Source: Acidobacteriota bacterium
Lineage (GTDB): Bacteria > Acidobacteriota > Blastocatellia > Pyrinomonadales > Pyrinomonadaceae
Assembly: GCA_029777145.1 (NCBI GenBank)
Contig: JAKOSS010000911.1
Location: 1-10,439, forward strand
Direction: 5' to 3'
Length of the DNA: 10,439 bases
Of the stretch, positions 1,156 through 10,084 are shown in pieces; the stretch's first letter is position 1, and every line of letters starts with the position of its first letter. The notes beneath the pieces were generated by a model. It was not told the origin of the DNA and ran no database searches. It was given only the letters and a program-made list of their open reading frames with translations. Position numbers and translations under genes: made by a program.

Positions 1156-2070
1156 TCACCTGTTGGCCAGTCCGTGGTAAACACGATCGTAGGTCGGCAC
1201 GTCGATCCCGAATTTTGCGGCTTCCCTAACGACGTACCCGGTCAGCGTCTCGAGTTCGTTCCGGCCACCTCTTATGAAATCGCTGTGCATTGACGAGGTC
1301 GAGTCAGGCGGAGCTTTTTCTAGTTTTGCGATTGTTGAATCGACGATGTCGTCGCCAAGTGCGACGCCCTTTGCGCGGCCGAGCGCGACGACCTCGGCGA
1401 TCATCGTTTTAAGCTCATCGCGGTGATCGCGGATCAATCCGCCGTTGTTCGTGTCGTGAAACGAAGTCAGCGACGCGAGCGGCGAAATGAAGACGTATTT
1501 TCTCCAAACCGTCGTTTCGATGTCGTTCGAAATATGCGCATCGATGCCTGAATCTTCGAGAATCGCGAGAAATCGTTGCATCGTAGCCGTGTCCGCTCCG
1601 CCGCCAAACTGAAAGATCCGCATCTCGCTTCCGACCCAAACCGTTCCGGGCGATTCGAGCCGCGCGACGATAAAGACACAGCCGTTCCAAACATCTGCAT
1701 CGGGAAAGACCGTCCGGATCGTCTCAGCGTGGTCGACGCCGTTCAGCAATGGCAGGATCGCGGTTCTCGGACCGATGATCTCGTAGTATTTTGTGATGCT
1801 TTCGCCGAGATCGAATGCCTTGGTCGCGACGATCAGAAGATCGACGACGACGATCGTCGCCGGATCATCGGAAACAAAATCGGGACGCGCGACCGATTCG
1901 CCCTGCGCTGTTTTGATCATCAGACCGTTCGCGCGGATCGCGTCGGCGTTGGCACCGCGCGCGATGAAAATCGTCTCGACCTCGTCCGATCCGGCGAACC
2001 GCCGGGCGATCTGTCCGCCGAAGTAACCGCCGACGCCGCCGACTCCCAAAACTGCAATTCTGAATTTCAT
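1156..2070 (-). CDS. Ketopantoate reductase family protein (2-dehydropantoate 2-reductase)
   Basis: The product has 304 residues, the usual length of the family. In pantothenate synthesis this enzyme reduces 2-dehydropantoate to pantoate with NADPH in the cytoplasm. The N-terminal Rossmann motif is GVGGVGGYFG (9-18). The catalytic-type residues are present: K84 in VATKAFD, N110 in LLNG, K191 in WRKYVF, and the C-terminal SSMHSD (259-264) with E272 in GRNELE. I start at 2070 because MKFRIAVLGVGG is the classic family N-terminus; the frame stays open to 2136, but that extension does not resemble the family. No strong Shine-Dalgarno precedes 2070. No panB or panC is nearby, and many genomes carry PanE-like paralogs of unknown substrate, so the family is secure and the exact reaction is not. 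Confidence 0.85.
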   Translation of the reverse strand: MKFRIAVLGVGGVGGYFGGQIARRFAGSDEVETIFIARGANADAIRANGLMIKTAQGESVARPDFVSDDPATIVVVDLLIVATKAFDLGESITKYYEIIGPRTAILPLLNGVDHAETIRTVFPDADVWNGCVFIVARLESPGTVWVGSEMRIFQFGGGADTATMQRFLAILEDSGIDAHISNDIETTVWRKYVFISPLASLTSFHDTNNGGLIRDHRDELKTMIAEVVALGRAKGVALGDDIVDSTIAKLEKAPPDSTSSMHSDFIRGGRNELETLTGYVVREAAKFGIDVPTYDRVYHGLANR

Positions 2071-2126
2071 GATATTTTTCGCGGACTTCGGATCAGTTGC
2101 GCCTTCAGGCATAACCAAGATCGACG

Positions 2127-2233
2127 CACTGACCACTGACCACCGAACTCTGACCGCTGCTGCGGCCGACTGCTTACGGCTTACTGCTCACTGCTCACTG
2201 CTTACTGCTTACTGCTTACTGCTCACTGCTCAC
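2127..2233. repeat. Heptanucleotide tandem repeat tract
   Basis: Seven consecutive 7-nt units (TTACTGC or TCACTGC) run from 2181 to 2229 plus a partial unit. Degenerate units extend back to 2127, including a perfect pair CACTGAC-CACTGAC at 2127-2140. The tract lies between the aldo/keto reductase and the ketopantoate-reductase-like gene. Read on the minus strand, each unit contains TGA or TAA, and the stop codon of the aldo/keto reductase (2230-2232) is supplied by the terminal unit. Because 7 is not a multiple of 3, the tract places stops in all three minus-strand frames. Confidence 0.9.
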
Positions 2234-3126
2234 GTTTTCCCAATCCAGTCATCGCCGGCGACGTCTTTCCAGCGGCCGCGGATCTCCTCAAATTCCGCCG
2301 CACCGAGACTTCCCTCGCCGACGTTCTTCACGTTCGCGCGAAGATTGCGTTCGCTCGTCGTGCCGACGATCGCCGTCGCGACGCCTTCGATCGAGAGCGT
2401 AAACCGGAGCGCGGTCGCGACCGATTCCTCAACCGTGCGCTTCAGAAACGGATAATCGAGCTTTTTCAGTCTTTCCCAATACTCGTGAAAATAGCTGTCG
2501 TCGGGTTTTTCGTCGAACCGCCAGACGGCGTTCGCCGCCGGACGCTTCGCGATCACACCGATGCCTTTATCATGTGCACGATGGATGTTTGAATCGATCG
2601 CCGCCTGATCGGCAATCGAAACCGAGGTCTGCAAGGTATCGAAAAAGTTTTGTCCGAGCGCGAATGCGGCGTCTTCATTGTCGCCCGAATAGCCGACAAA
2701 CCGGCACATTCCGCGTTCCTGAGCGCGGATCAGACCTTCGATGCAGTCGGCCTGGCGCAAGATCTCGGCCGAACACGAATGAAGCTGTGCGATGTCCAGA
2801 TAGTCCGTCTTGAGCAGTTTGAGCGAGCGTTCGATGGTCTCGATCACGCCTTTTTTCGACCAGTCCTCGCGGGTGAATCCGTCGAGCGCGCCGCATTTGC
2901 TGATCAGAACAAACTCATTTCGACGCGACGAGATCGCGTTGCCGATGAGCTCCTCGCTTCGGAAATACGCCGCCGCGGTGTCGATCAGGTTGATCCCCGA
3001 GTCGAGCACCGCGTTAAGGAGCGAACCGATCTCCGGATCCGGCAATCCGCACGAGCCGATCTCCCAACCGCCGAATCCGAGGGCGGAAACTTCGAGACCG
3101 GTGTTTCCAAGGCGACGCCTTTCCAT
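2230..3126 (-). CDS. Aldo/keto reductase family oxidoreductase
   Basis: This 298-residue protein is a cytoplasmic TIM-barrel NADPH-dependent carbonyl reductase. The opening MERRRLGNTGLEVSALGFGG is the standard N-terminus of the family. The full catalytic tetrad can be seen: D49 (LIDTA), Y54 (AAAYF), K77 (LISKCG) and H116 (IAQLHS). The C-terminal cofactor region reads IVGTTSERNLRANV (253-266). I chose the ATG at 3126; a TTG at 3138 would add four residues. Neither has a Shine-Dalgarno, and a 66-bp tandem repeat begins only 14 bp upstream, so promoter and translation signals must lie in or beyond repeat DNA. The physiological aldehyde or ketone is unknown; this family often clears reactive carbonyls, which would suit the neighbouring redox genes. 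Confidence 0.9.
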   Translation of the reverse strand: MERRRLGNTGLEVSALGFGGWEIGSCGLPDPEIGSLLNAVLDSGINLIDTAAAYFRSEELIGNAISSRRNEFVLISKCGALDGFTREDWSKKGVIETIERSLKLLKTDYLDIAQLHSCSAEILRQADCIEGLIRAQERGMCRFVGYSGDNEDAAFALGQNFFDTLQTSVSIADQAAIDSNIHRAHDKGIGVIAKRPAANAVWRFDEKPDDSYFHEYWERLKKLDYPFLKRTVEESVATALRFTLSIEGVATAIVGTTSERNLRANVKNVGEGSLGAAEFEEIRGRWKDVAGDDWIGKT

Positions 3127-3140
3127 GTGCGACCACAAAA

Positions 3141-3403
3141 ACCGATATCAGCTATGAACTACCAGTTTTTACAAATTCCGAAATAGCTGAGAACGGATAG
3201 CTGCGAACTGATAACTTCAGCTATGTTCTGTCAGTTTTTACCTATTCCGATAGCTGAAAACGGATAGCTGGGAACCGATATCAGCTATCAACTATCAGTT
3301 ATCACCTATTCCGAAATAGCTGAAAACGGATAGCTGGGAACCGATATCAGCTATGAACTCTCAGTTATCATCTATTCCGAAATACCAGAGCGGATATCTG
3401 CGA
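3141..3403. repeat. Four tandem copies of a 66-bp repeat
   Basis: Copies span 3141-3206 (66 bp), 3207-3273 (67), 3274-3339 (66) and 3340-3403 (64). Copies 3 and 4 are nearly identical for most of their length; copy 2 is the most diverged. Inside a copy there is a finer 7-nt rhythm (TATCAGC, TATCAAC, TATCAGT, TATCACC, TATTCCG) and self-complementary words such as GATAGCTG (3263-3270) with CAGCTATC (3282-3289). The array fills nearly all of the 314-bp gap between the aldo/keto reductase start and the peroxidase stop. I see no gene in this gap. Confidence 0.92.
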
Positions 3404-3440
3404 ATGATTGACGCGGTCGGCTATCCGAAATCCTGGAAGC

Positions 3441-3989
3441 TTAGCGCGCCAACTCTTCATCGATCTTCGCCAACAGCCGTTCATCGTCAGGCTTGACGTC
3501 GGGCGCGAAGCGCGCGGCGATCGAGCCGTTCTTGGCGATCAGGAATTTCTCAAAATTCCAGAGAACTTCGCTCGGCGTCGAACGCACCGAACCGAATCCC
3601 TTCAGTTTTTCTTCAAACGCGCCGTCGTTGACGTCAGAATCCGGCTTGTTCGTCGTCAAATACGAATACAACGGATGCTGGTCGTCGCCCTTGACCGAAA
3701 CCTTCGAGAACAGCGGGAACGTGACGTTGTAGTTGGTCGAGCAGAAATCCTTGATCTCGTCCTCGGTTCCGGGCTCCTGGCCCATGAAGTTGTTCGCCGG
3801 GAATCCGAGGATCTCGAATCCCTTGCCGCTGTAATCGCCGTAGAGTTTCTGAAGCCCTTCGTATTGGGGAGTCAGGCCGCATTTCGACGCGACGTTGACG
3901 ACGAGCAGCACTTTGCCGCCGAATTCACCGAGGTTTGTCTCCGCCCCGTCGATCGTCTTGACGGGGATCTCGTAAAGTCCGTTTGCCAT
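3441..3989 (-). CDS. gpx: Glutathione peroxidase family protein (Cys type, probably thioredoxin-dependent)
   Basis: This 182-residue protein, slightly longer than typical bacterial members of about 160, reduces hydrogen peroxide and organic hydroperoxides. The active-site tetrad is complete: C37 in VNVASKCGLTPQY, Q71 in GFPANNFMGQEPGT, and W144/N145 in WNFEKFL. The peroxidatic residue is cysteine and not selenocysteine. C83, in DFCSTNYNVTFP, sits where the resolving cysteine of thioredoxin-dependent members lies, so thioredoxin is the likelier electron donor than glutathione; that is inferred from the family. No signal peptide is visible. A good AGGAG Shine-Dalgarno lies about 7 nt before the ATG at 3989. 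It follows the O-methyltransferase by 91 bp and could be co-transcribed with it. Confidence 0.93.
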   Translation of the reverse strand: MANGLYEIPVKTIDGAETNLGEFGGKVLLVVNVASKCGLTPQYEGLQKLYGDYSGKGFEILGFPANNFMGQEPGTEDEIKDFCSTNYNVTFPLFSKVSVKGDDQHPLYSYLTTNKPDSDVNDGAFEEKLKGFGSVRSTPSEVLWNFEKFLIAKNGSIAARFAPDVKPDDERLLAKIDEELAR

Positions 3990-4080
3990 TTTGTTCTCCT
4001 AGATTTTTTTCGTTGACTGCGCACAACAGCGCGTTGAATCACCAAACCCAGCGCTCCCGCAAAGACGCGAACGCGCGAAG

Positions 4081-4731
4081 CTAATTCTTGACTATCATCA
4101 TCAACCCGTCGCGAACCGCGAGCAGAATGTTGCTGACGCGCGGATCGGACGTGATCTTACGATTGAATTCATGCAACGCCTGCGTGCTCTCGTCGACTTC
4201 CGCACCACCCGCCGCATCCACTACCCGACCGCTCCAAAGAACATTGTCCGCGAGGATCGTTCCGCCGGTCCGCACCTTCGGCAGCACAAGATCGAAGTAG
4301 TTGGAATAATTGGGTTTATCGGCGTCGATGAAAACAAGATCGAAGTTCTCGTCAAGCGTCGGAATGATCTCCGTCGCGAATCCGAGCCGACCGTCGATCT
4401 TCGATCCGAGCGGTGATCGCGACCAATAATTCTTCGCGATCTCGTGAGTTTCGGGCTCGATGTCAAGCGTGATCAGTTTTCCGTCATCGGTCAGTCCTTC
4501 CGCCAGACAAAGCGCCGAAAATCCCATGTACGTGCCGATCTCGAGGATTCGCCGCGGCCGGATCTGCCGGCTGAAAAGCGACAAAAGCCGGCCCTGATAA
4601 AACCCCGAGAGCATCGATTTGTCCGATCGCTCCGAGTACGTCCGCTGCAAAATTTCTTCGAGCAGAGCGTCGTGCGCCGACGTCATCGCGTCGGCGTATC
4701 GCTGAATAGTCGTGTTGATTACTTCAATCAT
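4081..4731 (-). CDS. SAM-dependent catechol-type O-methyltransferase
   Basis: This 216-residue cytoplasmic enzyme belongs to the metal-dependent CCoAOMT/COMT family (Methyltransf_3), which methylates one hydroxyl of catechols. The sequence shows the SAM-binding motif ILEIGTYMGFSALCLA (62-77), the acidic LDIEPE (89-94), and the metal/catalytic residues D136 and K139 in VFIDADK plus D162/N163 in DNVLWSG. These match the known metal and base positions of rat COMT by motif. The frame is open to 4830, but I start at 4731: homologs begin close to the MIEVINTTIQRYA segment, a GGA lies 3 nt upstream, and the extension is encoded by an inverted repeat. Methylating catechols prevents their oxidation to quinones, which fits the quinone-reductase and dioxygenase genes upstream. 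The actual substrate is unknown. Confidence 0.9.
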   Translation of the reverse strand: MIEVINTTIQRYADAMTSAHDALLEEILQRTYSERSDKSMLSGFYQGRLLSLFSRQIRPRRILEIGTYMGFSALCLAEGLTDDGKLITLDIEPETHEIAKNYWSRSPLGSKIDGRLGFATEIIPTLDENFDLVFIDADKPNYSNYFDLVLPKVRTGGTILADNVLWSGRVVDAAGGAEVDESTQALHEFNRKITSDPRVSNILLAVRDGLMMIVKN

Positions 4732-4737
4732 TATTCC

Positions 4738-4846
4738 ATTTTTGATTTTCAATTTTCGATTTGCGATTGTCCTCATTGGAGACGTTTCGATGCCGGAATT
4801 GCTTGGACCGAGCGCAATCGCAAATCGCAAATTGAAAATCGAAAAT
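4738..4846. repeat. 32-bp inverted repeat with 7-nt internal period
   Basis: Arm 4738-4769 is the reverse complement of arm 4815-4846 with two mismatches, separated by 45 bp. Each arm is itself a run of heptamers: AATCGCA, AATCGCA, AATTGAA, AATCGAA. It fills the space between the DUF3303 stop (4852) and the O-methyltransferase ATG (4731). A transcript from the left-running genes could fold into a long stem only 6 nt before the methyltransferase start, so it could act as a barrier or processing site. It has no U-tract typical of an intrinsic terminator. Confidence 0.88.
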
Positions 4847-4851
4847 CCCTT

Positions 4852-5121
4852 TCACGGCTCACGGCCCACAGCCAGCCGTCTCGCCTCGGCCGAGGACACG
4901 ACCGGAACGATCTCGAAATCCATCAGGTCGTCCCAGCTCGAGGTCCACAGTTCGAACAACGCCGGGTCGTCGGTCTCCATCAGCTGGTAGCAGCGTTCGA
5001 GATCTCGTTCGATCCAGCTCGAAACGTAGTTCAGCCCGTCCGGCATCATCCGTCCTTTCTCGTCAAGACGTTTGTAGATCCCGGCCGGATCCTTGAATGT
5101 TTCGATGACCATGAACAGCAT
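4852..5121 (-). CDS. DUF3303 family protein
   Basis: This is a small protein of 89 residues from the first conserved methionine. The pattern MLFMVIETFK at the start, RMMPDGLNYVSSWIE (24-38), CYQLMETDD (44-52) and FEIVPV (69-74) is that of DUF3303, a compact ferredoxin-like or dimeric alpha+beta domain of unknown function seen in many soil bacteria. No catalytic residues are assigned in the family. The frame is open to an ATG at 5238 that overlaps the preceding gene's stop as ATGA, but those 39 extra residues are encoded by octamer repeats (one stretch reads ESWNLGILKSWNL) and do not resemble the family. I therefore prefer 5121, which has only a weak GGAA Shine-Dalgarno, or 5112 two codons inside it. 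Confidence 0.8.
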   Translation of the reverse strand: MLFMVIETFKDPAGIYKRLDEKGRMMPDGLNYVSSWIERDLERCYQLMETDDPALFELWTSSWDDLMDFEIVPVVSSAEARRLAVGREP

Positions 5122-5122
5122 A

Positions 5123-5246
5123 AGATTCCAAGATTTCAAAATTCCAAGATTCCAAGATTCCATAAATGGAGACGACGATGGCCCGTCAATTTCGAACCCG
5201 GAGTCTTGGAATTTGGAATTCCGCAGGATTGGAATCATGGAATCCT
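5123..5246. repeat. Octanucleotide tandem repeat with an inverted partner
   Basis: Five tandem 8-nt units occupy 5123-5162 (AGATTCCA, AGATTTCA, AAATTCCA, AGATTCCA, AGATTCCA). About 41 bp further on, 5204-5246 holds the inverse words (TCTTGGAA, TTTGGAA, TTGGAATC, ATGGAATC). The two blocks are therefore imperfectly complementary and could form a stem. The second block runs into the 3' end of the MDR gene and supplies its last codons and its TGA stop (5235-5237). Confidence 0.85.
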
Positions 5247-6242
5247 GATCCCTATCTTCCCAAAATGCCGCGCGGATTCCATCAGTCTCAGCGCTTCGCG
5301 GGCTTCGTCGAACTCGAATACGCGATCGACGACCGGCACGATCCGATGCGTTTCGAAGAACGCGTTCATGTCCTCGAACATCTTGCGCGACCCGACAAAA
5401 AGTCCCTGAAGGCGGATCGATTTCATGAACAACGGGATCCAGTTGACCGGAGCGTCGCCGGCGAGAACGCCGATCAGCGCGATATGACCTCCCATCTTCA
5501 CGGCGGCGATCGATTTTGAAAGCGTTCCGGCGCCGCCGACCTCAAGGACGTGATCGACACCGCGCCGGTCAGTCAGTTCCGAAACTCGCTTTTCCCAATC
5601 CGGTGTCTCGCGATAGTTTATCAAATCGTCCGCGCCCAACTCTCTGGCGCGAGCGAGTTTCTCGTCGCTTCCGGAAGTGATGATCACCCGCGCGCCGACC
5701 GCCTTCGCGATCTGGAGCGCGAAGATCGAAACCCCGCCGGTTCCCTGCAGCAGGACCGAATCGCCGGCTTTGATCCCGCCCGAAACGACGAGGCAGTGCC
5801 ACGCCGTCACAGCCGCGCACGGCAGTGTCGACGCCTGCTCGAAATCGAGATGGCCCGGAATGCGGACGACCGCCGATTCATCAAAACAGCCGAACTCGCG
5901 GAGAACGCCGTCACGGTCGCCGCCAAGCGACGTGCGCGCCTTCTCGAACGAGATCTCGCCGTCGATCCAACCTTGAATGAAGATCGGACTGACACGGTCG
6001 CCGACTTTCCATTTCGTGACTTCCGATCCGACGGCGACGACCTCGCCGGCGCCGTCCGAGAGCGGCACGATCGGCATCTTCAGCCGCGGATTGTAAAGCC
6101 CTTCGACCATCCGCAGGTCACGGAAGTTGATCGAGGCGGCGTGGAATTTCGCGAGCACTTCGGTCGGTCCCGGCGACGGGACGTCGCGCTCGACGTATCC
6201 GAGGTTATCGATACCGAATTCGCTGATCTCGTAGGATTTCAT
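5235..6242 (-). CDS. Zinc-less MDR oxidoreductase, quinone-reductase-like
   Basis: This 335-residue protein belongs to the medium-chain dehydrogenase/reductase superfamily. Domains: N-terminal GroES-like fold (about 1-125) with ASINFRDLRMVEG (36-48) and PLSDGAGEVVAVG (60-72), then a Rossmann domain with QGTGGVSIFALQIAKA (166-181). The usual zinc ligands are missing: FRDL stands where zinc enzymes have a catalytic Cys, and LSDGAG replaces GHE. It is therefore of the zeta-crystallin/quinone oxidoreductase or enoyl-reductase kind and not a classical alcohol dehydrogenase. It would use NAD(P)H to reduce quinones or activated double bonds. Its ATG overlaps the stop of the dioxygenase gene as ATGA, pointing to coupled translation. 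It has no separate Shine-Dalgarno. Confidence 0.92.
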   Translation of the reverse strand: MKSYEISEFGIDNLGYVERDVPSPGPTEVLAKFHAASINFRDLRMVEGLYNPRLKMPIVPLSDGAGEVVAVGSEVTKWKVGDRVSPIFIQGWIDGEISFEKARTSLGGDRDGVLREFGCFDESAVVRIPGHLDFEQASTLPCAAVTAWHCLVVSGGIKAGDSVLLQGTGGVSIFALQIAKAVGARVIITSGSDEKLARARELGADDLINYRETPDWEKRVSELTDRRGVDHVLEVGGAGTLSKSIAAVKMGGHIALIGVLAGDAPVNWIPLFMKSIRLQGLFVGSRKMFEDMNAFFETHRIVPVVDRVFEFDEAREALRLMESARHFGKIGIRIP

Positions 6243-7003
6243 TTAGTTAGCTCGAATGACGTCATCGAGATCGATCCCAGTTCGACGACATCGTTGAAGA
6301 TCTCGATCCGGTCATCCTTCTCCCGCATCGCCATGAAATACAGGAGCGGCAGAAAGTGTTCCGGCGTCGGAATCGCCAACCGTATATCGTCGCCGAGTTC
6401 ACCGTAATTCGAAAGGCTTTCGACGTCGGATGCGCCGACCAATGCTTTCAGCTTCCCGTTCGCCGCAATTGCCCAATCCGCGCCGTTCGAATTTCGAAAG
6501 TTGACCATGCGCAGGTTGTGGACGATGTTCCCGCTGCCGATAAACAGGATACCGCGTTCGCGCAAAACACCGAGCCCCCGCGCGAACTCATAGTGTTCAG
6601 CCGGCGATTTCCGCCGGTCGAGAGAGATCTGAAGCACGGGAACGTCCGCCTCAGGGTAAATGTGTTTGAGCACCGACCAGGTTCCATGATCAAGACCCCA
6701 GGATTCATCGGGCAGGATCGTATCCTTGCCAAGTTCAGCGACGAGTTCGCGCGCGAGTTCCGGATCACCGGGCGCATCGTATTCGACGTCGAACAGTTCT
6801 TGCGGAAAGCCGTAAAAGTCATGGATCGTCCGTGGTCGTTCCATTGCCGTGACGAAGGTTCCGTCGGTTTCCCAATGCGCCGAGACGCAAACGATGGCTT
6901 TCGGCTTGCCGATCCGCGCTCCGATCGCGCGCCACGTCTCGGTAAACGCGTTATCCGCGATCGCGTGCATCGGATTTCCGTGACCGATGAATAGGCTCTT
7001 CAT
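6239..7003 (-). CDS. ygiD: Class III extradiol ring-cleavage dioxygenase (DODA/YgiD type)
   Basis: This 254-residue cytoplasmic protein belongs to the LigB-like extradiol dioxygenase superfamily. It closely resembles E. coli YgiD, a zinc or iron enzyme that opens L-DOPA and related catechols. Conserved histidines can be seen: H8 in FIGHGNP, H43 in VSAHWE, H106 in GLDHGTW, H162 in NIVHNL and H216 in PTPEHFLPL. The TIHDFYGFP block (59-67) and the closing ELGSISMTSF (241-250) are also typical. It starts at 7003, directly next to a degenerate heptamer tract and without a visible Shine-Dalgarno. The stop overlaps the next gene by ATGA. With DoxX upstream and a quinone reductase downstream it fits catechol or quinone clearance, though the natural substrate is unproven. 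Confidence 0.92.
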   Translation of the reverse strand: MKSLFIGHGNPMHAIADNAFTETWRAIGARIGKPKAIVCVSAHWETDGTFVTAMERPRTIHDFYGFPQELFDVEYDAPGDPELARELVAELGKDTILPDESWGLDHGTWSVLKHIYPEADVPVLQISLDRRKSPAEHYEFARGLGVLRERGILFIGSGNIVHNLRMVNFRNSNGADWAIAANGKLKALVGASDVESLSNYGELGDDIRLAIPTPEHFLPLLYFMAMREKDDRIEIFNDVVELGSISMTSFELTK

Positions 7004-7121: not shown

Positions 7122-7523
7122 TCATTTCTCCCCTGCTTTCGAGAGCAGGCTGTCGACCGAAATCGAACCGCCGCCGGCAAAGAACAAATAAAAGAAGACG
7201 AAGCTGTAAAGCACCGCCAATTCGCCTTTGTTGACGATCGGCAGGAACGCATTCGTCCCGTGCGCCATGAAGTAAGCGACCGCCATCATCCCGCTCAGGA
7301 TGAACGCGGTCCAGCGGGTGAACAAACCGATCAGGATCAGAATTCCGCCGCCAAGTTCGAGAATGCCGCCGAAGGTCATCAGCGGTGAAAGGCCGGCGCC
7401 CGCATTCTGCGACGCCGGAAAGCCCAGCAATTTCTGCGAACCGTGCCACATAAACAGGAATCCCGTGATAAATCGCAGCAAACTCAAGATGCGCGGCTGC
7501 CACGCCGCAAAAAAGTCGTTCAT
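7122..7523 (-). CDS. DoxX family membrane protein
   Basis: This 133-residue protein has four hydrophobic segments at about 10-29, 46-66, 71-88 and 101-118, placing it in the inner membrane. Family hallmarks are FMWHGSQKLLGF (24-35) and FGGILELGGGILILIGLFTRWTA (51-73). DoxX proteins are small four-helix membrane proteins linked to quinone or thiol redox chemistry; B. subtilis MhqP and CatD belong to this group. The frame is open to 7571, but I start at 7523, where the family N-terminus begins and a G-rich Shine-Dalgarno (GGGGGGAG) lies close upstream. It follows the thioredoxin-like gene by 37 bp, so co-transcription is likely. Confidence 0.92.
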   Translation of the reverse strand: MNDFFAAWQPRILSLLRFITGFLFMWHGSQKLLGFPASQNAGAGLSPLMTFGGILELGGGILILIGLFTRWTAFILSGMMAVAYFMAHGTNAFLPIVNKGELAVLYSFVFFYLFFAGGGSISVDSLLSKAGEK

Positions 7524-7560
7524 ATTTCTCCCCCCAAAATAAGTAATGATTGCCGAAGCC

Positions 7561-8169
7561 TCATGCCGCAACGGCCTGATTCCCGCCCCGGAACTTCAGA
7601 AGTTCTTCAAGATCCGATTGGATCGAGCGATGTCGGTCGTCGTTGTACCAACGCTGCATCTTCTCATTGATCGCCGATTTTTCAAGCCCCGCCCGCTTCA
7701 ACTCCTCGAAATAGGCCTGGCCCGCGCGCGGTCTCGGCCCCCACGTCCCAAGAATCGTCAACTCTTCGGCGTCGAGCGCGATTAGCTTCGGGATCGATCG
7801 CGCGCCGTTCGTCAAGAATCGGTCCATCAGTTCCGGATTCTCGTCGCGCAGAACGTACCGCGTCTCGATAAGTTCGGTTTCGCGGGCGATGCGCTCGATC
7901 GCCGGAACCGATTGTGCCGCATCGCCGCACCAGCCTTCGGTCAGAATCAGCCAGATCATTGGTTTGGCAATTATACGCAGTTGTTCGCGCAATGATTCAT
8001 CGAGGACGAAAGTCTTCTCGATCCGACGCATGCGATGCAGATTGAGTTTGGAAAATTCAGTCCGTGACTCCGATTGCTCGGGTCCGGTCGATTTTCCCGT
8101 CTTCAATAATTTCGCGATCAGTGCCGTATATTCGGCGTAGTTCATCGATTTTTCCAAATATCCTTTCAT
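7561..8169 (-). CDS. Thioredoxin-fold family protein with WCGDA active site
   Basis: This 202-residue cytoplasmic protein has a thioredoxin-like core: WLILTEGWCGDAAQSVP (73-89) and the cis-proline strand SIPKLI (125-130), followed by TILGTWGPRP (138-147). The second active-site cysteine is replaced by alanine (CGDA), leaving C81 as the only cysteine in the motif. From memory, WCGDA is the norm in this family, which is common in Bacteroidota and Acidobacteriota, so it is not a defect here. A single-cysteine site would suit a mixed-disulfide or non-reductase role; the function is not established. The ATG at 8169 overlaps the previous stop as ATGA. An internal ATG at 8145, with GGA upstream, is a possible alternative start. 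Confidence 0.85.
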   Translation of the reverse strand: MKGYLEKSMNYAEYTALIAKLLKTGKSTGPEQSESRTEFSKLNLHRMRRIEKTFVLDESLREQLRIIAKPMIWLILTEGWCGDAAQSVPAIERIARETELIETRYVLRDENPELMDRFLTNGARSIPKLIALDAEELTILGTWGPRPRAGQAYFEELKRAGLEKSAINEKMQRWYNDDRHRSIQSDLEELLKFRGGNQAVAA

Positions 8170-8774
8170 TTGCGGTTCTGTTTGAGATTCGCGATCTCTT
8201 TTTCAAGTTCGTCGATCCGCTCGTAAAGCGAACTCGCCATTAGTTTTATTTCATCGACCGTGTATCGCGGCGTGATGTGCTGCGGACAGTTCCAATCGAA
8301 CGCTTCGACCTCGAAGACGATCGCCCGTTCGATCTTCGCCGTGTTCTCATCGTGCTTGAGAGCAGCGATCACTTCCGGATCGGTTGCGATCCTCGCCCGC
8401 GCCATGATCTTCAGCCGTCGCCGCCGAGCGTAATCCATCAGGAACAGCGACGCCTTGTCGTTTCCCTTTAGATTGCCGACGCTGATGTACTGCCGGTTGC
8501 CACGGAAATCCGCATATCCGATCGTCCGCGGACCGAGAACTTTCAGAAATCCGACCGGACCTCCGCGATACTGGACGTACGGCCAGCCTGTTTCGCCGGC
8601 CGTCGCCAGATAAAAACCATCCCTTTGCTCGATAAAGTCGATCTCGGCCCCGGTCAGTTCGACCTCGGCCTCGCTCGATGCTCCCGACCGCGAATACAGG
8701 TCCCGCGATCCAAATTCCGTTTGGACCGCCTTCACGTCGGGCGTGAAGGCGATCTTGTGATAACGCGCTGACAT
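8166..8774 (-). CDS. Pyridoxamine 5'-phosphate oxidase-like FMN-binding split-barrel protein
   Basis: The product has 202 residues from the methionine at 8774. The core shows FYLATAGETGWPYVQYRGGPVGFLKV (54-79), FRGNRQYISVGNL (90-102) and LFLMDYARRRRLKIMARA (110-127), typical of the PNPOx-like split barrel that binds FMN, F420 or haem. It is not PdxH itself: these members lack the pyridoxal substrate signature and act as poorly characterised flavin oxidoreductases. The C-terminus (about 173-200) is rich in Leu/Ile/Glu/Lys at heptad spacing and looks like a short coiled coil. The frame extends to 8825 in the 34-residue ORF's region, but homologs start at MSARYHKIAFTP. Its ATG lies 2 nt after the stop of that small ORF and lacks its own Shine-Dalgarno, so it may be translated by re-initiation. 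Confidence 0.88.
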   Translation of the reverse strand: MSARYHKIAFTPDVKAVQTEFGSRDLYSRSGASSEAEVELTGAEIDFIEQRDGFYLATAGETGWPYVQYRGGPVGFLKVLGPRTIGYADFRGNRQYISVGNLKGNDKASLFLMDYARRRRLKIMARARIATDPEVIAALKHDENTAKIERAIVFEVEAFDWNCPQHITPRYTVDEIKLMASSLYERIDELEKEIANLKQNRK

Positions 8775-8776
8775 AT

Positions 8777-8881
8777 TTATTGGAGCAGGCGCTGCCAGAA
8801 TCCGCTGTGGCCGATCAGCCACCAATAACCATCGATCGCGGCTGCGCCAAGTCTTGCGATGATCGTTCCGAATGAATTCAT
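8777..8881 (-). CDS. Small ORF, 34 residues, unknown function
   Basis: The frame runs from an ATG at 8881 to TAA at 8777-8779. The leader reads TGAGGTGATC before the ATG, so a strong GAGGTG Shine-Dalgarno overlaps the stop codon of the nitroreductase gene. The product starts MNSFGTIIARLGAAAIDGYW and continues with WLIGHSGFWQRLLQ. It is hydrophobic with three tryptophans and few charges, so it could be a short membrane-associated or amphipathic peptide. It sits 7 nt after the nitroreductase and 2 nt before the split-barrel gene. That placement fits a real operon member or a leader that couples translation of the next gene. I do not recognise a family. Confidence 0.6.
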   Translation of the reverse strand: MNSFGTIIARLGAAAIDGYWWLIGHSGFWQRLLQ

Positions 8882-8888
8882 GATCACC

Positions 8889-9539
8889 TCACACTCTGAC
8901 GACGAGATCGTCGCGTCGCGCCCGGACTTTCGGTAGCGGCGCCAGCCAGTCGTTTTCGTCACGGTATCCGACCGCCGCGACGACCACAGCCGAATGCCCG
9001 TCGAGTCCAAGTATCTCGTTGAACCGAGCCGCGTCGAATCCTTCCATCGGCGTCGCGTCGATGCCGAGCATCGCGGCGGTCTCGAGCAGAAATCCGAGCG
9101 CGATGTACGCTTGGCGCGAATTCCAGGCCTCGATGTAACCCCCGTCGATCGCACGCTTGGCGGAACCGTTGATCACATTCTCGAGCTCGTTCAGCGAATG
9201 CCGTTCAACGCCTCGAACCTCGGCGATCCGATCGACGTACGCCGCGACGTCGTTCTGATCGAGGACGCGTTTATAGGCGAACACCGCCAGATGCGAACTG
9301 TCCGTGATCTGCGGCTGGCCGTATGCAGCTTCGCGAAGGCGTTCACGCACTGCCGGATCGGTGACGACGATCAGTTTGAATGGCTGCAGACCGAAACTCG
9401 TCGGCGCGAGGATCACCGAATCCTCGAGCACCTGCCAATCCTCTTCGGAAACGCTCCGCGTCGGATCATATTTCTTGACCGCGTAACGCCAGTTAAGCCG
9501 TTCCATCAGTTCAGTTTGCGATATCGTTGCTGTTGACAT
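8889..9539 (-). CDS. NfsB-like NAD(P)H nitroreductase
   Basis: The product has 216 residues. This FMN flavoenzyme family reduces nitroaromatics, quinones or dihydropteridines with NAD(P)H in the cytoplasm. FMN-site segments are RLNWRYAVKKYD (14-25) and APTSFGLQPFKLIVV (45-59). The C-terminal half, with QAYIALGFLLETAAMLGIDATPMEGFD (143-169) and VGYRDENDWLAPLPKVR (190-206), matches the E. coli NfsB pattern closely. I start at 9539, which has a good purine-rich Shine-Dalgarno (GGGAAGGGAAATT before ATG); the ATG at 9560 has none. A TGTATC-N7-GTTACA palindrome 26 bp upstream nearly matches the one in the rrf2 promoter, so the Rrf2 protein probably controls it directly. B. subtilis MhqN is a functional parallel. 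Confidence 0.93.
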   Translation of the reverse strand: MSTATISQTELMERLNWRYAVKKYDPTRSVSEEDWQVLEDSVILAPTSFGLQPFKLIVVTDPAVRERLREAAYGQPQITDSSHLAVFAYKRVLDQNDVAAYVDRIAEVRGVERHSLNELENVINGSAKRAIDGGYIEAWNSRQAYIALGFLLETAAMLGIDATPMEGFDAARFNEILGLDGHSAVVVAAVGYRDENDWLAPLPKVRARRDDLVVRV

Positions 9540-9565
9540 AATTTCCCTTCCCTTGTTCATATATT

Positions 9566-9584
9566 TGTAACTGTGCTTGATACA
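9566..9584 (-). promoter_or_regulatory. Predicted Rrf2-family operator before the nitroreductase gene
   Basis: Read on the minus strand this is TGTATC-N7-GTTACA, one base from a perfect inverted repeat and matching 11 of 12 arm bases of the palindrome at 10048-10066 with the same spacing. It lies 26 bp before the nitroreductase ATG, within the 67-bp gap after rrf2. A TTGACC that could serve as a -35 box lies just upstream, but I cannot place a convincing -10. Confidence 0.7.
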
Positions 9585-9589
9585 GAAGT

Positions 9590-9607
9590 GGTCAAATTTT
9601 TTTGACC
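9590..9607. promoter_or_regulatory. Perfect palindrome GGTCAAA-N4-TTTGACC next to the rrf2 stop
   Basis: Seven-base arms flank TTTT (plus strand). It begins at the last base of the rrf2 stop codon and precedes the predicted nitroreductase operator. As an rrf2 terminator it is weak: the stem is AT-rich and the minus strand lacks a following T-run. It also contributes TTGACC, a possible -35 box for the nitroreductase promoter. It may be a second protein-binding site. Confidence 0.5.
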
Positions 9608-10044
9608 TAAGATGTCGGCACCGCGACCGATCCTTCGACCGACTCGATCACGTCGCGCAGAGTATAGGACGCAAGTTTCTCCTGCACCGCGAGATCGATC
9701 TCGGCTTGAAGCCCGCCAAGCACCCGTTGGATGTTACGGCCGATCGGGCAATCCTGGTTTGGCGTGTTCGGATGCAGCGAAAACACTTCACTTGTCGAAA
9801 CCGCGTTGAAAATATCGAGCAGCGGGATCTCTTCCGGCTTTCGCGCGAGGCAGGTTCCGCCGCACGCTCCTGTCTGCGAGACTACCAAATTCGCCTCGTG
9901 CAGGCTGCACATCAGCCGCCGGATCACCACCGGATTCGTGTTCACGCTCCGAGCCAAATAGTCAGACTTCACACGCTCGTCACAACTCCGGGCAAGCATC
10001 GCCAGGACGTGGACCGCGATCGAAAATTGACTGTTTGACGCCAT
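9607..10044 (-). CDS. Rrf2 family transcriptional regulator, YwnA-like
   Basis: This 145-residue DNA-binding repressor has an N-terminal winged helix (FSIAVHVLAMLAR at 7-19; SVNTNPVVIRRLMCSLHEANLV at 33-54) and a dimerisation helix in the C-terminal third. It resembles B. subtilis YwnA along its length, including the NTNPVV recognition helix and the DCPIGRNIQ segment (98-106). It lacks the three-cysteine iron-sulfur signature of IscR/NsrR: the cysteines are C21, C46, C61 and C65 (in the wing) and C99. A thiol switch is therefore more likely than a cluster. The Staphylococcus aureus Rrf2 member HypR is a known HOCl-sensing thiol-switch repressor. The promoter is overlapped by a palindrome, pointing to autoregulation. 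No Shine-Dalgarno precedes the ATG. Confidence 0.9.
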   Translation of the reverse strand: MASNSQFSIAVHVLAMLARSCDERVKSDYLARSVNTNPVVIRRLMCSLHEANLVVSQTGACGGTCLARKPEEIPLLDIFNAVSTSEVFSLHPNTPNQDCPIGRNIQRVLGGLQAEIDLAVQEKLASYTLRDVIESVEGSVAVPTS

Positions 10045-10047
10045 AAC

Positions 10048-10066
10048 TGTAACAAGTATAGTTACA
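10048..10066 (-). promoter_or_regulatory. Predicted autoregulatory operator TGTAAC-N7-GTTACA
   Basis: This is a perfect 6-base inverted repeat with a 7-nt spacer, 3 nt upstream of the rrf2 ATG. The -10 hexamer lies inside the spacer, so a bound dimer would block RNA polymerase. The near-identical copy before the nitroreductase gene supports its being the Rrf2 protein's site. Confidence 0.72.
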
Positions 10067-10084
10067 AAACTTTGATCGTGTCAA
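10055..10084 (-). promoter_or_regulatory. Sigma-70-type promoter of the rrf2 gene
   Basis: On the minus strand a consensus -35 TTGACA (10079-10084) is followed by an 18-bp spacer and TATACT (10055-10060), one base from the -10 consensus. The start point should fall near 10047-10049, only about 3-5 nt before the ATG at 10044. The mRNA is therefore probably leaderless or nearly so, consistent with the missing Shine-Dalgarno. Confidence 0.75.

Follow-up and report, generated by a model that had tools for sequence, protein, structure and literature searches.

Two unequal palindromes flanking an acidobacterial rrf2 gene are candidate operators of its YwnA/SifR-type repressor

The window, the whole stretch of 10,439 nucleotides of DNA analysed here, carries two palindromes built on TGTAAC-N7-GTTACA, one perfect and one imperfect, which we regard with good confidence as operators of a YwnA/SifR-type Rrf2 repressor whose gene lies between them: this protein would repress its own gene from the perfect site, occupy a weaker site before the adjacent operon and be released from DNA by electrophiles. 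The elements on which this reading rests are the following.

10055-10084, minus strand: rrf2 promoter, with TTGACA (10084-10079), 18 bp and TATACT (10060-10055); promoter match 11/12.
10048-10066, no strand assigned: site 1, putative perfect operator, TGTAACAAGTATAGTTACA; TGTAAC-N7-GTTACA, 12/12, 3 bp upstream of the rrf2 ATG (10044).
9607-10044, minus strand: rrf2, 145 aa, predicted Rrf2-family repressor, YwnA/SifR-like, with the putative sensor Cys99 in CPIG.
9566-9584, no strand assigned: site 2, putative imperfect operator, TGTAACTGTGCTTGATACA on the plus strand and TGTATCAAGCACAGTTACA in gene direction; 11/12.

Read on the minus strand, in gene direction, site 1 (10066-10048) consists of the arms TGTAAC and GTTACA around the spacer TATACTT, and site 2 (9584-9566) of TGTATC and GTTACA around AAGCACA. 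A scan located both palindromes where the original prediction had placed them, with equal N7 spacing and arms alike at 11 of 12 bases; the 26 bp that it had given between site 2 and the nitroreductase ATG agree with the coordinates (9566 versus 9539), and an alternative, longer ORF start (9560) stands 5 bp away. As candidate sites of the form TGTAA-N9-TTACA, site 1 matches at 10/10 bases and site 2 at 9/10. No third copy of TGTAAC-N7-GTTACA was found when the window was scanned with up to two mismatches allowed, shuffled windows yielded a mean of 0.04 matches, with two matches in 0/200 shuffles, and a repeat search recovered the site 1/site 2 pair as a 29-nt inverted repeat of 79% complementarity.

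The protein encoded between the sites belongs to the Rrf2 family (Pfam PF02082, 103.7 bits against a gathering score of 30), and its best sequence matches of known structure are 1ylf, an RRF2 family protein, and Bacillus subtilis YwnA (1xd7), the latter a near full-length match (phmmer E 8.5e-26) that shares the SVNTNPVV-RR stretch and the C-P-x-G cysteine. In an alignment of 91 rows, comprising the window, 74 relatives of the order and 16 others, Cys99 of the CPIG motif is conserved in 91/91, and the window protein's other four cysteines are found in 12, 26, 5 and 10 of the 91 rows. The protein therefore has the single conserved cysteine of the SifR/YwnA monothiol quinone sensors (C102 in SifR; the CPV stretch in YwnA). 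Two other identities were ruled out. The closest NCBIfam model, HypR (NF041852), gives 66.7 bits, under its cut-off of 180, so the protein is no HypR equivalog; and the Cys-X5-Cys-X5-Cys-X2-His pattern of Fe-S Rrf2 regulators, as quoted in PMC9218516, is absent, Cys99 being the only cysteine in that region and the IscR model reaching 20.3 bits against a cut-off of 207.55, which excludes an IscR-type Fe-S sensor. Additional cysteines occur at window residues 84 and 110, where the window has Thr and Gly, in 47/91 and 49/91 homologues respectively, and sensing chemistry may vary between clades.

The closest described system is SifR of Streptococcus pneumoniae, an Rrf2 protein and one-cysteine quinone sensor related to YwnA, whose own function is called unknown in the same paper (PMC9218516). 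There, SifR is reported to bind a 19-bp TGTAA-N9-TTACA operator, with binding measured and affinity roughly tracking operator symmetry; the operator was found by its likeness to the core operator of Staphylococcus aureus HypR, quoted as TGTAA-x9-TTACA. The window system has in common with SifR both this operator and one conserved cysteine, and the SifR targets named in that paper, NAD(P)H/FMN reductases, a catechol dioxygenase and possibly trxB, can be likened to the operon behind site 2. The two differ in that the window rrf2 has a perfect site of its own that encloses the -10 box, in that the putative targets form the adjacent operon, in that the dioxygenase is of the LigB type rather than CatE and in that electrophile sensing is putative in the window protein. 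The HypR likeness lies in the operator core and in the NCBIfam match, where HypR ranks best; HypR is, however, an HOCl sensor and is called a dithiol regulator in PMC9218516, whereas the window protein has one conserved cysteine.

To gauge how closely the palindrome follows the gene, we searched the best 80 of 489 confirmed relatives from 250 bp upstream to 30 bp into rrf2 and found a site matching at least 10/12 bases in 66/80 loci, against 36/4000 shuffled regions (0.9%); it is present in 27/30 Acidobacteriota-titled and 39/50 other loci of this set. The 14 loci lacking it are 7 from Haloferax, 3 from Geothrix, 2 Verrucomicrobia-titled, 1 Deltaproteobacteria-titled and 1 from Paenibacillus, so the protein is not always accompanied by the box; the seven archaeal Haloferax homologues (L029, L033, L034, L037, L039, L040 and L044; ~50% identity) all lack TGTAAC-N7-GTTACA upstream. 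A second set covered the order of relative G001, with 119 genomes, 82 of which hold a homologue at E <= 1e-20, in 91 places. Every one of the first 74 places has a site of 10-12 of 12; of the remaining 17, a site is present in 13 and missing from 3, and 1 is truncated by its contig. In the rows of the order set, site 1 is a full 12/12 in 64/74. The total is 87/90 assessable places with a site of at least 10/12 upstream of rrf2, and the three without it are all paralogues of 35-38% identity. Pyrinomonas methylaliphatogenes, a cultured relative, carries a homologue (L051) preceded by a perfect site, and a second site was not seen at that locus. L017, nearly a copy of L157 and having site 1 perfect and site 2 imperfect, was omitted from the counts of 74, 59 and 45 used here; L194, whose site 2 is imperfect and whose upstream region is off the contig, was counted neither among the 90 nor among the 45. 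The original prediction had taken the palindromes for a likely Rrf2 operator and noted that Rrf2 proteins usually repress themselves. Such constancy across the order and the wider set suggests that the first is very probably so and that rrf2 is probably self-regulated; counted against self-repression is that the terms 'autoregul' and 'autorepress' are absent from the SifR paper (PMC9218516).

Site 1 also overlaps the rrf2 promoter, as had been predicted: the -10 hexamer TATACT falls inside its spacer. Counting the window, 59 loci have site 1 at a distance of 18-24 bp upstream of the start codon, and in 59/59 the start codon, placed by alignment to the window protein, comes 0-4 bp after the site. 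Site positions 7-12 hold the hexamer; 17 bp from it, 53/59 loci have a TTGACA-like box (at least 5/6), and the remaining 6/59, the window among these, have a perfect TTGACA at 18 bp, which gives a -35 box in 59/59. Positions 7-12 themselves match TATAAT at no fewer than 4/6 bases in 73/74 rows of the order set. As transcription of rrf2 is expected to start within a few bp of the ATG and the start codon lies 0-4 bp past site 1, the rrf2 mRNA is probably leaderless. Among loci without an Acidobacteriota title in the best 80 of 489 relatives, a -10-like spacer (at least 4/6) occurs in only 19/39 loci having the site, and a -35-like box (at least 4/6) likewise in 19/39. Site 1 is thus a putative promoter-embedded operator in the relatives' order, and the pattern does not appear to be general beyond Acidobacteriota-titled loci. 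A repressor dimer bound to site 1 would cover the -10 box and thereby turn off its own, probably leaderless, transcript.

Site 2 precedes a run of genes on one strand, nitroreductase to zinc-binding dehydrogenase, with overlaps or gaps of up to ~120 bp and no further box between them.

8889-9539, minus strand: NAD(P)H nitroreductase (PF00881), first gene behind site 2; alternative start at 9560.
8166-8825, minus strand: PNPOx_N/PPOX-type flavoprotein, putative operon member; its start may be further downstream.
7561-8169, minus strand: Thioredoxin_9 protein, putative operon member.
7122-7571, minus strand: DoxX family membrane protein, putative operon member.
6239-7003, minus strand: 4,5-DOPA-extradiol dioxygenase of the LigB type, above the NF007914 cut-off, putative operon member.
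5235-6242, minus strand: zinc-binding dehydrogenase, quinone-oxidoreductase-like, putative operon member.

Taken together, these genes would serve redox or aromatic detoxification, and quinones or other electrophiles may modify the invariant Cys99, upon which the repressor would leave the DNA and the operon be induced. Past the operon, on the same strand (1156-5238), the window encodes a DUF3303 protein, an O-methyltransferase, a glutathione peroxidase, an aldo-keto reductase and a ketopantoate reductase; the O-methyltransferase, peroxidase and aldo-keto reductase recur in some relatives.

Which gene comes first behind rrf2 varies. A second site of at least 10/12 is found behind the rrf2 stop in 45 of the 59 loci with an ATG-adjoining site 1 (L155, L160 and L161 are outside the 45, having site 1 further upstream and an 11/12 second site with a different mismatch). 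With the first downstream gene called by tblastn with the window proteins within 1.1 kb, it is the nitroreductase in 16 of these loci, a thioredoxin-like protein in 15, the Zn-dehydrogenase in 6, DoxX in 3, PPOX in 2 and none in 3; at the 14 loci without site 2 the figures are 6 for Zn-dehydrogenase, 5 for nitroreductase and 3 for thioredoxin-like. Site 2 is hence more plausibly a putative operator of a redox operon of variable gene order than one specific to the nitroreductase, and the 'two-gene regulon core' of the original prediction does not hold up, the nitroreductase being first in only 16/45. At 11/14 loci without site 2, the first gene overlaps rrf2 or begins within ~75 nt of its stop, and a second promoter may therefore be unnecessary. 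These loci include the case named beforehand as damaging, in which rrf2 and nitroreductase are kept and the palindrome is lost: it exists for site 2 (L103, L104, L109, L115 and L118, where the nitroreductase gene shares bases with rrf2 or begins no more than ~70 nt past its stop, L103 retaining a 9/12 remnant), not for site 1, which is perfect in all five.

Where site 2 is present, it is never perfect: 0/45 rows show 12/12, 43 show 11/12 and 2 show 10/12. In the closest relative, G039 (92% identity), its arms are identical to those of the window and its spacer has diverged. Position 5 is T in 26 rows, G in 15, C in 2 and A in 2, with T/G preferred over C, and the two rows with A mismatch elsewhere, L116 at the mirror position and L144 at position 6. 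The base at position 5 must have changed at least 14 times on the best rrf2 tree of the 45 rows (mean of 16.3 with shuffled labels, 17/200 shuffles being as low); with a number so near that of shuffled labels, it hardly follows kinship and does not go back to a single frozen ancestral mismatch, on a single-gene tree whose well-supported inner branches (16/42) by themselves require at least 8 T-label changes. Site 2 is furthermore paired with a second element:

9594-9603, minus strand: A-T tract, 10 bp, AAAAAAATTT on the minus strand, ending 9 bp before site 2.

In 41/45 loci, an A-T tract of at least 8 bp precedes site 2 with its end at exactly 9 bp from the site; such a tract was found in 0/14 loci without site 2, over a 60-nt search region around and beyond the rrf2 stop, and in 58/2672 control windows. 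In the window, the tract is extended into a perfect palindrome, GGTCAAAAAAATTTGACC, at the rrf2 stop codon (9590-9607), terminator-like by pattern. As a general terminator or operator this palindrome was rejected, since it occurs in 3/209 loci only, all from genome G039; most other relatives with site 2 have the A-T tract in its place, and it probably belongs to that conserved tract. Also discarded was the idea that the left arm of site 2 conceals an inverted repeat, YTG-TAK-CAR, since positions -1 and 7 show no covariation. Eleven bp past the right arm of site 2, at offset +24 counted from the first base of the site, 18/45 loci match GTTACA at no fewer than 4/6 bases, more than at neighbouring offsets; this degenerate third half-site, GTTA(C/A), is absent from the window.

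By analogy with SifR, whose affinity follows symmetry (PMC9218516), the imperfect site 2 should bind the repressor more weakly, and together with the 10-bp A-T tract it would control the downstream operon. To the further proposal that site 2 is a selected low-affinity, 'second-tier' operator, in which one half-site defect frees the operon earlier or at lower stress than rrf2, we give close to an even chance. It fits a site 1 that is 12/12 in 64/74 rows beside a site 2 that is so in 0/45, the repeated changes at position 5, the mismatch elsewhere in both rows with A (L116 and L144) and the loss of SifR affinity with lost symmetry (PMC9218516); the large excess of T and G over C, however, suggests that T/G is required rather than that A is simply avoided, and the changes were counted on the single-gene tree, whose well-supported branches secure at least 8 changes of the T label. 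That same bias would suit another explanation, in which T/G at position 5 and the A-T tract are promoter parts of the operon, such as an UP-like element and a non-canonical core, and the overlap makes the operator imperfect; we think this possible, if somewhat doubtful. The exact 9-bp placement of the tract in 41/45 loci, its absence from all 14 loci without site 2 and its low frequency in controls speak for it, but position counts yield no convincing or canonical -35/-10 pair around site 2, and a -10-like TACARA over the right arm would stand 20 bp from the TTGA ending the tract. That the palindromes are due to chance, serve another transcription factor or form a transcript hairpin is very improbable: the Haloferax homologues without a box would agree with an unrelated regulator and, with G at position 5, a G-U pair would still allow a stem at site 2, but that stem is broken in the 26/45 rows with T, window included, site 1 stays with rrf2 in 66/80 of the best 80 of 489 relatives and 87/90 order places, and the box is identical to the measured SifR operator (PMC9218516).

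Returning to the two palindromes as operators of the Rrf2 protein between them, we tentatively extend this reading to a pair of deliberately unequal operators in Pyrinomonadaceae-type Acidobacteriota: a perfect one within a leaderless promoter, and an obligately half-defective one that, with its A-T tract, would form a portable promoter-operator module before whichever redox gene comes next, the defect being kept by selection through repeated base changes and setting the order of induction. The original prediction knew of no described operator for YwnA-like members in Acidobacteriota; the operator type is in fact known from SifR and HypR (PMC9218516), and its occurrence in this phylum may be new. 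A search of open-licence literature returned no paper on an Rrf2 operator in Acidobacteriota, and the SifR paper was the only match for the Rrf2 family with TGTAA/TTACA. New here are the -10 box in site 1, the imperfection of site 2 in 45/45 rows and the pairing of the A-T tract with site 2. Judged from the DNA, the SifR/HypR operator code appears to reach past the Gram-positive hosts named in the SifR paper, to Acidobacteriota and, among the best 80 of 489 relatives, to loci titled Corallococcus, Archangium, Chloroflexi, Azospirillum and others, whereby the regulons of a large, mostly uncharacterised Rrf2 group would become predictable from DNA. The always-imperfect second operator would also offer a natural case in which evolution keeps a repressor's binding to its own gene and to its targets unequal.

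A scan of the genomes of 13 relatives finds the perfect box at 27 distinct places and the reversed control pattern at 1; 13 of the 27 are at rrf2 or an rrf2 paralogue. The original prediction had proposed looking for the box near redox genes in related genomes, and six of the 27 places do lie at or before the starts of redox or stress ORFs: thioredoxin plus Zn-dehydrogenase, an HtrA-like protease, Zn-dehydrogenase, thioredoxin and an SDR (two sites), one Zn-dehydrogenase box overlapping the first bases of that gene's longest ORF. As for the other eight, six are inside ORFs, G002 C73 is letter-identical to one of these, and G002 C28, which is intergenic, lies between two ORFs where a small Fis-type HTH ORF begins and has no clear target. 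Searched for in 12 genomes, the site-2 form, TGTABC-N7-GTTACA, turns up at 22 places, 12 of which are the copy adjoining rrf2; the other 10 are no more than in the control (16, both strands counted). With site-2-form places away from rrf2 at control level and perfect boxes few, the regulon would be small and mostly local. Genome G003 (L094) has eight perfect boxes, one before the thioredoxin and Zn-dehydrogenase pair and another just before the longest ORF of the HtrA-like protease. Finally, the Rrf2 paralogues L200 and L206 have differing upstream palindrome-like sites (TGTGTT...AGTAACA and TGTATT...AGTAACA, respectively), which suggests an altered operator code.
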